Source: Rhodanobacter panaciterrae (GTDB taxonomy: Bacteria; Pseudomonadota; Gammaproteobacteria; Xanthomonadales; Rhodanobacteraceae). From it: a stretch of DNA of 64,000 bases. Made by a program: the position numbers and the translations under genes. The DNA is taken from NCBI RefSeq assembly GCF_014651895.1, contig NZ_BMXT01000001.1, positions 1,798,001 through 1,862,000 of the forward strand. Direction: 5' to 3'. Under the pieces are notes generated by a model that made no database searches, was not told the DNA's origin, and saw nothing but the letters and a program-made list of their open reading frames with translations. This document shows, piece after piece, positions 38,761 to 42,425 of the stretch (positions within the stretch are counted from its first letter, which is position 1; the number at the start of each line of letters is the position of its first letter).

Positions 38761-39585
38761 ATGACCACCCTGCCCAGCCTGTACATCTCGCACGGTTCGC
38801 CGATGACTGCACTGCAACCGGGCCTGACCGGCGAACGACTGGCCGAACTGGCTGCTGTGCTGCCACGGCCGAAGGCGATCGTGATGGCCAGCGCGCACTG
38901 GCTGTCGCGACGGCCGCAGGTCGGCAGTGCAGCCATGCCCGAAACCATCCACGATTTCGGTGGTTTTCCCGCCGCACTTTACCAGCTGCGCTATCCGGCG
39001 CCAGGCGATCCTGTGCTGGCCGATCGCGTCATGCAGTTGCTGGATCATGCGGGCCTGGCGCCCATCGCCGATCCCAAGCGCGGACTGGATCATGGCGCCT
39101 GGGTGCCATTGCGCTTGCTGTATCCGGACGCCGACATTCCGGTAGTACCGGTCTCGATCCAGCCCGAACTTGGCCCCGCGCATCAGTACGCGCTGGGTCA
39201 GGCGCTGGCGCCGTTGCGCGACGAAGGCGTGCTGGTGATCGGCTCGGGCAGCATCACCCACAATCTGCACGATCTGCGCGCCGGCTACAGCGACGAGCGG
39301 CAGGCGCCGTACGTAAAGCCGTTCATCGACTGGATCGAGCAGAAGCTCGCCGCCGGCGATATCGACGCCTTGCTCGACTATCGCCGCCAGGCACCGTTCG
39401 CCGAACGCGCGCATCCCACCGACGAGCACCTGCTGCCGTTGTTCGTGGCGTTGGGTGCCGCCGGCGCAAAGGCCCATGCGCAACGGATCGACGCGGGCAT
39501 CGACATGGGCCTGCTGGCGATGGATATCTACCGCTTCGACGGCCCGACCGTCGACGACTCGCGCACCCCGCTCACTGCACGATGA
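38761..39585 (+). CDS. DODA-type extradiol dioxygenase family protein (YgiD-like)
   Basis: 274 aa of the class III extradiol dioxygenase (LigB) superfamily. Metal-site histidines appear in LYISHGSPM (His11), ASAHWLS (His46) and SGSITHNLHD. The start is a short hydrophobic TTLPSLYISHG typical of YgiD/DODA proteins. E. coli YgiD acts on DOPA, but a physiological substrate is not established. The 3' end overlaps the convergent cupredoxin gene by 14 bases. Confidence 0.88.
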   Translation: MTTLPSLYISHGSPMTALQPGLTGERLAELAAVLPRPKAIVMASAHWLSRRPQVGSAAMPETIHDFGGFPAALYQLRYPAPGDPVLADRVMQLLDHAGLAPIADPKRGLDHGAWVPLRLLYPDADIPVVPVSIQPELGPAHQYALGQALAPLRDEGVLVIGSGSITHNLHDLRAGYSDERQAPYVKPFIDWIEQKLAAGDIDALLDYRRQAPFAERAHPTDEHLLPLFVALGAAGAKAHAQRIDAGIDMGLLAMDIYRFDGPTVDDSRTPLTAR

Positions 39586-39967
39586 TCGTGCCGACCATCA
39601 TCGGGTGGATCGAGCAGTAATAGGCATAGGTACCCGGTTTGGAAAACGTCACCGCGTAGGAGTCGCTGGTATCCAGTCCCTTCGAGGAAGCGAACTGCGA
39701 ACCGGCGCTGGTGATCACGTGCGGCTCCTCGTCCTGGTTGGTCCACACCACGCGGGTACCCGCCGGCACGGTCAGCGTCGCGGGCGCGAAGGCGAAGTTG
39801 CGTATCTCGATCTGCTGCGTGTGCATCGCCTTCGAGGCCGCTGCACTTGCTGCCATAGCGGCAGGCGATGCCATGCTGACACAGCAAAGCACGCCCAACG
39901 CCAGCAGCACAGTTGGATGCCAACGCAGCGCGTGTGGTCGTGCAAATCCACGGGCAATCGCTTTCAC
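39572..39967 (-). CDS. Exported type-1 copper protein (cupredoxin)
   Basis: 131 aa. The signal peptide ends near SMASPAAMAA. The cupredoxin domain has all four type-1 copper ligands: His83 (EEPHVI), Cys118, His121 and Met124 (CSIHPMM). It resembles plastocyanin/amicyanin-like electron carriers found in envelope stress operons. Its start overlaps the metallophosphoesterase stop by four bases, so the two are coupled. Expression is probably driven by the ECF promoter at 40994-41022. Confidence 0.88.
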   Translation of the reverse strand: MKAIARGFARPHALRWHPTVLLALGVLCCVSMASPAAMAASAAASKAMHTQQIEIRNFAFAPATLTVPAGTRVVWTNQDEEPHVITSAGSQFASSKGLDTSDSYAVTFSKPGTYAYYCSIHPMMVGTIIVQ

Positions 39968-40908
39968 GACAGCACCTCCTCGGTCACGGCGAGGGCTTGC
40001 CTGCCCTGCACGTGGCGTACATCGCGAATGCCGAGATAGCGATGCAGCGCGCCCGGCGCCACCTCCTTCATCGGTCCGGGCCCAGGCCCGACGCCGGGCG
40101 CAGGTTGCGGATAGGCCGTCGAGCGCGCCGTGTAGAACGTGATGTTGCCTTCCACCTTCTGCTGGATCTGGTGGATATGGCCATTGAGTACGCTGACCGA
40201 GCCGAACCGTCGCAGAAGGGACATCGCCTCGGCACTATCGTCCGTGCCCCAGCCCCACGGCGGGTACAGCGGCCATAGCGGCATGTGGGCGAACACCACC
40301 AGCGGCGTTTCGGCGGATAGCCCGGCGAGATCCTTTTTCAGCCAGGCCAGCTGCTCCATGCCCAGCGAACCCAGCCCACCGGCCTTGAGGTCGAGCACGT
40401 TGATCAAACCGACGAAGTGCACGCCGCGATGGTCGAAGCTGTACCAGCCGCCCGTCTGCTGGCGTTCGCCGAAGCGGCGAAAGAATTCGGCACCGTTGTC
40501 GCCGATCACGTCGTGCTCGCCCGGCACGTAGAACACCTTGCGCGCGTGCGACTCCTGCATCACGCCGGTCAGCGTGTCGAACTCCTCGGGCTTCGACAGA
40601 TGCGTGAGATCGCCGGTATGCAACAGAAAATCCGGACGCGCGGCCTGCGCATTGACCAGCGCCACCGAAGCACGCAGCGTGCCCACCACGTCCATGTTCG
40701 GCGCCTTGTGGAAGCCGATATGGGAATCGCTGATCTGCGCAAAGCTGAAGCTGGCATCCGCCATGGATGCCGTCGCCGCGCCATCACCCAACGGCTGGGC
40801 GCGCAGCACGCCGCCCTTCATCAGCCAGAGCGTGCCGGCCCCGGCCCAGGCCATACATTTGAGGAACTGGCGGCGGCCGCCAGCTTCGTTGTCGTGATTG
40901 TCTTGCAT
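39964..40908 (-). CDS. Tat-exported metallophosphoesterase
   Basis: 314 aa. A twin-arginine signal (GRRQFLKCMAW) is followed by a Ser/Ala spacer and a calcineurin-like phosphoesterase domain. Motifs: DSHIGFH (61-67), HTGDLTH, PGEHDVIG (normally GNHD) and NGHIHQ. The N-to-E change in the third motif is unusual; in this fold that residue contacts a metal. Being Tat-exported it folds with its metals in the cytoplasm before export. The coupled cupredoxin downstream and divergent sigma factor suggest a periplasmic stress role. The substrate is unknown. Confidence 0.85.
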   Translation of the reverse strand: MQDNHDNEAGGRRQFLKCMAWAGAGTLWLMKGGVLRAQPLGDGAATASMADASFSFAQISDSHIGFHKAPNMDVVGTLRASVALVNAQAARPDFLLHTGDLTHLSKPEEFDTLTGVMQESHARKVFYVPGEHDVIGDNGAEFFRRFGERQQTGGWYSFDHRGVHFVGLINVLDLKAGGLGSLGMEQLAWLKKDLAGLSAETPLVVFAHMPLWPLYPPWGWGTDDSAEAMSLLRRFGSVSVLNGHIHQIQQKVEGNITFYTARSTAYPQPAPGVGPGPGPMKEVAPGALHRYLGIRDVRHVQGRQALAVTEEVLS

Positions 40909-40993
40909 GATGAACACTCCGCAGGGGTGAATGGTCGAACGGCCACGGCCGGGAATCGGGTGGCCGTAGATGCCTGGGCTTCCCTCTCCCTGC

Positions 40994-41022
40994 ATTACCG
41001 ATCGCCTGGCTCGCCTATTCCC
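40994..41022 (-). promoter_or_regulatory. ECF-type promoter of the metallophosphoesterase-cupredoxin operon
   Basis: On the minus strand GGGAATA (41022-41016) is followed, after exactly 16 bases, by GGTAAT (40999-40994). The spacing and both boxes are identical to the plus-strand copy at 41036-41064, and an inner CGAGCCAG word is shared. The resulting leader is about 80 bases. Confidence 0.75.
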
Positions 41023-41035
41023 GCTTTTGCGCGGC

Positions 41036-41064
41036 GGGAATAAAGTCGAGCCAGCCGAGGTAAT
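41036..41064 (+). promoter_or_regulatory. ECF-type autoregulatory promoter of the sigma/anti-sigma operon
   Basis: GGGAATA (41036-41042), 16 bases, GGTAAT (41059-41064), mirrored by the minus-strand copy. The two GGGAATA boxes form the arms of a 9-bp palindrome (GCGGGAATA). The sigma gene start codon lies only seven bases after the -10 box, so the message would be nearly leaderless, or the true start is further down. Confidence 0.75.
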
Positions 41065-41071
41065 CCCTTTC

Positions 41072-41641
41072 ATGCCCGTCGATTTGCACGTCATCCCGCC
41101 AAGCCCGGACAGCGTCCGCAGCGCGCGCTTCGAGGCGCTCGTGCTGCCGTGCCTCGACGCGGCCTACAACCTCGCGCGCTGGCTCGCGCGCAACGATGCG
41201 GATGCGCAGGATGTGGTGCAGGAAGCGATGCTGCGGGCGCTGCGCTATTTCGACAGCTTCCACGGCAACGACGCCCGCGTCTGGCTGCTCGCCATCGTGC
41301 GCAACACCTACTACACGCTGTGCATGAAAACCCCGCCCGACAACCTGCGCGAGTCGCTGGACGAGGACGCCCATCCGCTGATCGATCAGGGCCCTTCACC
41401 GGAAGCCCTGACCCTGCTGGCGGTGGACGTCGGCACGCTGCAGCTCGCACTGGAACGCCTGCCACCTCCGCTGCGCGAAGTGCTCGTGCTGCGCGAGCTG
41501 GAAGAGTGTTCCTACAAGGAAATCGCCGCGATCACCGAACAGAAAATCGGCACCGTCATGTCCCGGCTCGCCCGTGCGCGGGAACGCCTGAAGACCGAGC
41601 TGACCTGCCGCCCCAAGGAGGTACGTCGTCATGACCTGTGA
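41072..41641 (+). CDS. ECF RNA polymerase sigma factor
   Basis: 189 aa with sigma region 2 (LDAAYNLARWLARNDADAQDVVQEAMLRALRYFDSF) and region 4 (LQLALERLPPPLREVLVLRELEECSYKEIAAI, then GTVMSRLARARERLK). It would bind the two divergent GGGAATA promoters. The anti-sigma gene overlaps its end by 11 bases, ensuring equal synthesis. The signal is unknown. The ATG at 41072 matches region 2 homology; an in-frame codon at 40970 would put the N-terminus across the promoter and is unlikely. Confidence 0.92.
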   Translation: MPVDLHVIPPSPDSVRSARFEALVLPCLDAAYNLARWLARNDADAQDVVQEAMLRALRYFDSFHGNDARVWLLAIVRNTYYTLCMKTPPDNLRESLDEDAHPLIDQGPSPEALTLLAVDVGTLQLALERLPPPLREVLVLRELEECSYKEIAAITEQKIGTVMSRLARARERLKTELTCRPKEVRRHDL

Positions 41642-42425
41642 TGACACCAGGCTGCTGATGCACGCCTATCTCGATGACGAGCTGGACGCTGCGCAAAGCG
41701 CGGTCATGGCCCGGCACCTGCAGGAGTGCACCTCTTGCACAGCCAACTACGGCGTATACAGCCGACTGCGCAAGGCGCTGGCGCAACCCGGGCTGTACCA
41801 TCGCGCGCCGGACGCGTTGCGCGAACGCTGGAGCCCCGCGCCATCCGCGGCGCAGGCCACCCTGCCCGCTTCTTCCCAGCCCCGTCGCGCACCGCTCGCC
41901 TACGCGATGGCCGCCGGTTTCGCCGGTGCGTTGCTGCTCACCAGTCCGGCATGGATCACCGCCTTGCAGCAGCGCGGCGCGGACAGCAATCCGGTCGTGG
42001 CCGAGGCCATCTCCAGCCACATCCGCTCGCTGCAGGCACAACACCTGATGGACGTGGTGTCGACCGACCAGCACACGGTGAAACCATGGTTCGAGGGCAA
42101 GCTCGATTTCTCGCCGCGTGTGAAGGATTTAGTCAGCGAAGGGTTCCCGCTGATCGGTGGCCGTCTCGATGCGATCGACGGGCGCAGTGTTGCCGCCCTG
42201 ATCTACAAGCGGCACCTGCATGTAATCAACCTCTACCAGTGGCCAGCGGATTCGGCGGCGACGGCGCAAGCGGAAGTGCAGCGTCACGGTTACACCGTCA
42301 TCCGCTGGACCGCCGAAGGCATGCGCTATGTCGCCATCTCCGACGTCAGCGCGGGCGATCTGAAACAGTTCGTGCTCGCCTTCCAGAACGATGCTGGAAC
42401 ACCAGCCGTGAACCCGTCGCGATAA
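41631..42425 (+). CDS. Zinc-finger anti-sigma factor with periplasmic domain
   Basis: 264 aa. The N-terminal ZAS domain has His29-xxx-Cys33-xx-Cys36 (RHLQECTSC). A single membrane helix (about 90-112) separates it from a 150-residue periplasmic domain with KPWFEGKLDFSPRVKDL and HVINLYQWP, a pattern shared by COG5662-type anti-sigma proteins. It holds the overlapping-gene sigma factor at the membrane until a signal acts on the outer part. The start overlaps the sigma gene. Confidence 0.92.
   Translation: MTCDDTRLLMHAYLDDELDAAQSAVMARHLQECTSCTANYGVYSRLRKALAQPGLYHRAPDALRERWSPAPSAAQATLPASSQPRRAPLAYAMAAGFAGALLLTSPAWITALQQRGADSNPVVAEAISSHIRSLQAQHLMDVVSTDQHTVKPWFEGKLDFSPRVKDLVSEGFPLIGGRLDAIDGRSVAALIYKRHLHVINLYQWPADSAATAQAEVQRHGYTVIRWTAEGMRYVAISDVSAGDLKQFVLAFQNDAGTPAVNPSR

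Follow-up and report, generated by a model that had tools for sequence, protein, structure and literature searches.

Predicted divergent ECF26-type promoters, one of them with a probably leaderless sigma message, between an ECF sigma factor operon and a metallophosphoesterase-cupredoxin operon

In the genome of Rhodanobacter panaciterrae (3,457,015 bases, 12 contigs), we found a pair of back-to-back promoter motifs that we read, with a probability of about 0.78, as a divergent promoter pair used by one ECF sigma factor of ECF26-type promoter preference, the message of the sigma factor itself being predicted to be leaderless. A motif of fixed spacing lies on each strand of the intergenic region, is conserved on both sides among relatives, and recurs at this locus. 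All coordinates below refer to a 64,000-nt stretch of contig NZ_BMXT01000001.1, which is the whole stretch of DNA that was analysed and which we call the window.

The sigma factor gene (41072..41641, plus strand) encodes a 189-aa ECF-type protein in which Sigma70_r2, Sigma70_r4_2, and Sigma70_r4 scored above the Pfam cut-offs, while no match to region 3 was found in the 189 residues, so that the protein comprises regions 2 and 4 only. Against the NCBIfam model NF009185 (PRK12533 RNA polymerase sigma factor) it scored 211.6 bits, under the curated cut-off of 248. Directly downstream, and overlapping the end of the sigma gene, lies an anti-sigma factor gene (41631..42425, plus strand; 264 aa), whose product carries an N-terminal zf-HC2 zinc-finger anti-sigma domain above the cut-off and a hydrophobic stretch that, judged by eye, suggests one membrane span. 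On the minus strand, the metallophosphoesterase gene (39964..40908; 314 aa) matched Metallophos above the cut-off and encodes a calcineurin-like protein with a twin-arginine-like start (RRQFLK), and its end is overlapped by a cupredoxin gene (39572..39967, minus strand; 131 aa; Cupredoxin_1 and Copper-bind above the cut-offs). The sequence GGAG at 40917..40920 (minus strand), 8 nt before the phosphoesterase ATG, is likely the ribosome-binding site of that gene. The divergent start codons enclose a gap of 163 bp (40909-41071), with the sigma ATG at 41072. Beyond these four genes, a LigB-family extradiol dioxygenase gene (38761-39585; top NCBIfam match 4,5-DOPA dioxygenase, below the cut-off) converges on the cupredoxin gene, with a 14-bp overlap at its end. 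Within the host genus the locus is patchy: the sigma gene was present in 7 genomes (E 1e-40 or better) and had no match in at least 20, which makes loss or transfer of the locus within the genus likely.

Our starting point was an initial annotation that had reported GGGAATA-N16-GGTAAT on both strands of the gap, and this held to the base, with a 16-base spacer in each case. On the sigma side (plus strand), the -35 box GGGAATA lies at 41036..41042 and the -10 box GGTAAT at 41059..41064 (core GT 41060-41061), the latter ending, as had been stated, seven bases before the predicted start codon. On the phosphoesterase side (minus strand), the corresponding boxes lie at 41016..41022 and 40994..40999 (core GT 40998-40997). 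The genome-wide scan that the annotation had proposed, run here as GGGAATA-N15..17-GGTAAT, returned 2 matches in the 3.46-Mb genome, both at this locus, against 0 for the reversed-pattern control. Upon shuffling the gap 20,000 times with dinucleotides preserved, GGAATA-N17-GT arose on either strand in 63 shuffles and never on both. The strict GGGAATA-N16-GGTAAT pattern arose on either strand in 1.

The motif was strongly conserved within the bacterial family of the host (Rhodanobacteraceae, to which Dyella also belongs), in which 61 of 233 genomes held a sigma orthologue at E 1e-40 or better and all 61 loci were read. We found GGAATA-N17-GT on the sigma side in 59 loci, on the opposite strand in 60, and on both in 59, and the spacer was always 17. 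Both sigma-side misses, L011 and L186, are the most distant two by the tree, and the upstream DNA of L186 is missing because that locus begins at a contig end. A -10 box is present as first described, but the strict GGTAAT did not stand: its core is GT with flanking preferences, and the motif is better written GGAATA-N17-GT. The base after GT was A in 49/59 loci on the sigma side and in 59/60 on the phosphoesterase side. Next to the -35 box, AA followed GGAATA on the sigma side in 59/59 loci, with a T two bases on in 56/59, and on the phosphoesterase side the next base after GGAATA was G in 44/60. Two further features of the earlier description are correct for the window and proved incidental. 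CGAGCCAG is indeed contained in both spacers, but it is unconserved as a spacer element, since an 8-mer common to both spacers occurred only in the host and in L184 (a CG repeat) out of 59 loci. Likewise, the GGGAATA boxes do sit in the arms of a 9-bp palindrome, TATTCCCGC at 41016-41024 and GCGGGAATA at 41034-41042, yet the bases between the -35 boxes, that is, the palindrome beyond GGAATA, vary among family loci. The strand folds strongly (z -4.2), and this fold, which runs through CGAGCCAG and the -35 boxes, is the same unconserved inverted repeat. In three more distant relatives (L012, L015, and L017), the phosphoesterase, cupredoxin, sigma, and anti-sigma genes share a single orientation; this gene set therefore also occurs without a divergent promoter pair.

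The motif GGAATA-N17-GT equals the published consensus of group ECF26 promoters, which in the portion of PMC6180224 used here is given as -35 GGAATA / -10 GT across species, with mapped examples including rpoE4, the rpoE1 operon, and the sorT operon with its pseudoazurin gene; the RpoE1 promoter, GAAT-N18-GTCT in the excerpt of PMC3616915, has the same spacing. We speak of an ECF26-type promoter and not of an ECF26 member because the assignment rests on the promoter and the protein was placed against one member only, at 33% identity over residues 45-185 (E 6e-14). That member is encoded by a sigma gene in an unannotated stretch of pSymA, which we take for rpoE6 since mapped RpoE6 promoters adjoin it. 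The Sinorhizobium system built on RpoE1, RpoE4, and RpoE6 of S. meliloti (ECF26) resembles our locus in its -35 and -10 elements and their spacing, in an autoregulated sigma/anti-sigma operon, in a divergent target gene beside rpoE6, and in a copper protein (pseudoazurin) gene in an RpoE4 target operon, whereas the targets described in the sections used of PMC6180224 and PMC3511301 include sulfite oxidase and a serine protease. A term search of PMC6527743 found no phosphoesterase, and the rpoE6 stretch of pSymA gave no phosphoesterase match. In the excerpt of PMC3511301, the authors describe a sulfite response for the S. meliloti factors RpoE1 and RpoE4 and state that RpoE3 and RpoE6 have none.

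Outside the family, we collected 119 loci (118 distinct upstream regions) as 67 + 22 + 30 from separate searches. Two of these samples are closest-first, as the 67 are what remained of the best 80 of 422 once 13 family members had been set apart, and the 30 were the best 30 from 242 matched of 398 genomes. A locus was classed as having a divergent phosphoesterase when a homologue pointed away within 700 bp. In this partly closest-first sample, the 37 loci with a divergent phosphoesterase carried both motifs in 28 cases, the sigma-side motif only in 6, the opposite only in 2, and none in 1, compared to 4, 41, 1, and 36, respectively, for the 82 loci without one. The spacer was 17 in 77/118 on the sigma strand (next, spacer 20: 15) and in 35/118 on the opposite strand (next, spacer 16: 4), again with part of the sample closest-first. 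The 17-base spacer is seen again in other families and phyla, chiefly at loci with a divergent phosphoesterase gene. When 398 genomes of the phylum were searched by pattern, 6 contained both strict sites (controls 0), namely, the host, G022, G534, G406, G564, and G642, with gaps between the -35 boxes of 15, 14, 21, and 32 in the last four. Within the family of G642, a divergent phosphoesterase was present in 9/30 loci read, six of which had both sites, with gaps of 31-33 in five and 14 in one. The earlier proposal that the sigma factor drives both its own operon and the metallophosphoesterase-cupredoxin operon is, as far as sequence can speak to it, well supported: the sites fit the ECF26 consensus, the motif is conserved on both sides in 59/61 family loci, and outside the family the motif pair is linked to a divergent phosphoesterase (28/37 vs 4/82 in the partly closest-first sample).

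These data bear on three other accounts of the sites. Chance matches, which the short cores and the single sites in 63/20,000 shuffles would favor, have a negligible probability in view of the 0/20,000 shuffles with both sites and the conservation on both sides. We consider it very improbable that a dimeric regulator uses the inverted repeat as its operator and that the arms are not two -35 boxes: while the perfect 9-bp arms in the host, the folding of the strand, and the quantised gap lengths in the family (see below) would suit an operator, the bases outside GGAATA vary, the gap can be anything between 14 and 37 among family loci and between 2 and 126 elsewhere, and the far GT boxes are conserved too, at fixed spacing. 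Improbable, if less so, is a reading in which one or both promoters are used by some other ECF sigma factor that the cell possesses. Another sigma factor could read the sites because 14 genome stretches match the sigma family model NF009185, and overlapping regulons were reported for S. meliloti RpoE1, RpoE4, and RpoE6 (PMC6180224, in the part used here). Against it, the sites accompany this particular sigma gene: the pair is present in 59/61 family loci, and outside the family they occur mostly where phosphoesterase and sigma genes are divergent neighbors.

The strict regulon looks like just these two divergent operons, with weaker sites possible. Scanning eight family genomes for GGAATA-N16-GGTA gave 26 hits, 14 at the locus and 12 elsewhere, compared to 14 in controls; the promoter locus was the recurrent site across these genomes. 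For the patterns scanned, a wider regulon was rejected. Ten of the 12 strays lay inside open frames and two before a gene (L104 in the host and L119 in G145), neither of which recurred among the listed hits of the 8 genomes. The L104 site (1501-1526; C1:410389-410414), found in the host genome only, lies 74 bp before a gmd-like gene and is possibly an extra target or a chance hit. With GGGAATA-N17-GTM, we obtained 4 hits in the host (2 at the locus and 2 inside long frames; 2 control hits) and 7 in G145 (2 at the locus; 2 control hits). One stray hit common to host and G145 (L124/L125) was dismissed as a target, as it sits in a coding frame with codon-wise changes.

The sigma-side promoter is predicted to start transcription at the start codon itself. 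We derived a start rule from the nine ECF26-type rows in Table 1 of PMC6180224, the last base of which we took as the transcription start because it is in lower case in some rows. Counted from the G of GT, this base stands at +10 in one row, +11 in five, +12 in two, and +14 in one. By this rule (10-14 bases, mode 11), the sigma message would begin at 41071..41072 (plus strand), at or one base before the ATG, and the phosphoesterase message at 40987 (minus strand), leaving a leader of about 79 nt. The nearly leaderless sigma message put forward in the initial annotation thereby gains support, both from this distance of 0-1 base and from the position of the ATG, which is fixed across the family: it was found at +11 (13 loci) or +12 (46 loci) from the G of GT in 59/59 loci, in frame in 57/59 and out of frame in L181 and L182. 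The phosphoesterase ATG, by comparison, lies 37-91 bases from its own GT in the 50 family loci that could be aligned. No fixed distance from GT to the start codon was seen outside the family, where L081 (ATG at +12) and L039 and L085 (GTG at +11) resemble the family arrangement. In 14/57 loci, the stretch from the in-frame stop upstream to the conserved region 2 Phe contains no ATG, GTG, or TTG other than this ATG. Differences after the ATG fell on codon positions 1/2/3 as 86/69/109, compared to 40/31/201 in the following domain (20 disjoint pairs, 48 loci), and by this pattern the stretch after the sigma ATG is coding and weakly constrained.

Leaderless messages have precedents. In S. meliloti, 171 starts were mapped to the first base of the start codon, all of them AUG (PMC3616915, in the portion used here), and the sigma start codon at 41072 is likewise an AUG; the present case differs from these in being predicted and in concerning a single autoregulated sigma gene throughout a family. 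The EcfF-OsrA system of Bradyrhizobium japonicum is similar in that its ECF operon is autoregulated and has been mapped to a start overlapping the annotated ATG, but its authors inferred a later start codon, and it belongs to another ECF group with another promoter (PMC3420878, as excerpted). S. meliloti ecfR6 was tried as a leaderless parallel and set aside: its ATG is at the mapped start, yet the frame consists of six codons at the sigma gene end.

The chief alternative keeps both promoters as described but has the sigma protein made from something other than a leaderless message, either a longer transcript from an undetected upstream promoter, using GAGG as its ribosome site, or a later start codon. 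We judge this unlikely, though with some points in its favor. The sequence GAGG overlaps the sigma-side -10 box in 25/48 loci examined, and six more loci (L171-L176) have a ribosome-site-like purine run 4-5 nt before the sigma ATG, which in L172-L176 resembles AGAGG or GAAGG and falls within a stretch that should stay untranscribed if the message is leaderless. An A just before GGT is also far more frequent on the sigma side (28/59) than on the other side (2/60). Another start codon stands ahead of the conserved Phe in 21/57 loci, and ecfF offers the published precedent for choosing a later one (PMC3420878, same excerpt). Set against these points, the ATG is held in position to one base in 59/59 loci while the bases before it vary, a search of 40850-41150 found no sigma-70-like promoter, and in 36/57 loci no further start codon comes between the ATG and the conserved Phe of region 2. 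In the host, moreover, the distance from GAGG to the ATG is 11 nt, more than is usual for a ribosome site.

Taking the divergent, partly leaderless arrangement as the preferred reading, we propose the following sequence of events. A membrane anti-sigma factor would release the sigma factor, which together with RNA polymerase would bind GGAATA-N17-GT on either strand. Transcription of the sigma/anti-sigma operon would then provide positive feedback with a matched supply of anti-sigma factor, while transcription of the metallophosphoesterase-cupredoxin operon would provide the output. The phosphoesterase message would carry its leader of about 79 nt with the GGAG site, whereas the sigma message would have its first base at the AUG, or one base ahead of it, and be translated leaderless, in an arrangement fixed in the family. 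That this sigma factor is the reader of the sites is our inference, as are the release step and the signal.

By inference from the gene content, with a copper protein and a phosphoesterase that looks secreted, the function could be an envelope response to redox or metal stress. ECF autoregulation and divergent ECF promoters were already known. To these the locus adds an output, made up of a secreted-looking metallophosphoesterase and a cupredoxin, that accompanies an ECF26-type switch in several phyla; a strict regulon that seems confined to the two divergent operons; and an example, holding throughout a family, of an autoregulated sigma message predicted to begin at its own AUG. A literature search, mostly of open journals and covering titles and the starts of abstracts, found no paper on a sigma factor with a metallophosphoesterase and cupredoxin. 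Leaderless messages are translated differently from leadered ones under stress, and the locus may for this reason serve as a natural test of translation mode as part of a stress switch.

The distance between the two -35 boxes showed a pattern of its own. The GGAATA boxes are separated in the host by 15 bp (41022..41036, between TATTCC at 41016-41021 and GGAATA at 41037-41042), and in the 59 family loci by 14 (1 locus), 15 (41), 25 (2), 26 (7), 36 (2), or 37 bp (6), which places the box centers 20-21, 31-32, or 42-43 bp apart, or about 2, 3, or 4 helical turns. Gap length looks constrained because the gap sequence varies and the phosphoesterase leader takes many lengths (25 in 50 family loci). 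The family tree requires at least 7 gap changes, with only 3 needed between turn classes, and all 17 longer gaps fell in one clade. For loci outside the family, the Rayleigh test was restricted to the 22 whose gaps do not exceed 60 bp, 6 with longer gaps being set aside, and yielded R 0.47 (p 0.007) at 10.5 bp. Clustering at 75% sigma identity reduced these to 18 loci, for which R was 0.50 (p 0.009), at a phase of 8.3 compared to 0 in the family; other periods also gave low p values there (0.04 at 8.5, 0.025 at 10). Helical phasing as a general rule was therefore dropped, being weaker outside the family, where lineages follow another phase or depart from the pattern, and the quantised spacing within the family is suggestive only; if real, it would tie promoter geometry to the switch. 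Rather doubtful, in our estimate, is the bidirectional switch that could be built on it, in which the -35 boxes lie on about the same helix face and the two halves are coupled by DNA geometry: two sigma-polymerase complexes, or alpha C-terminal domains on a shared A/T run, would cooperate or exclude each other, and the leaderless sigma arm would throttle the feedback while the output arm is translated normally. Among Paraburkholderia relatives the gaps are 32, 32, 33, and 48. A run of at least five A or T lies between the -35 boxes in L035, L039, L052, L059, L068, L079, L080, L200, L202, L203, and L205, and such a run between divergent boxes could be UP element-like and serve both promoters.
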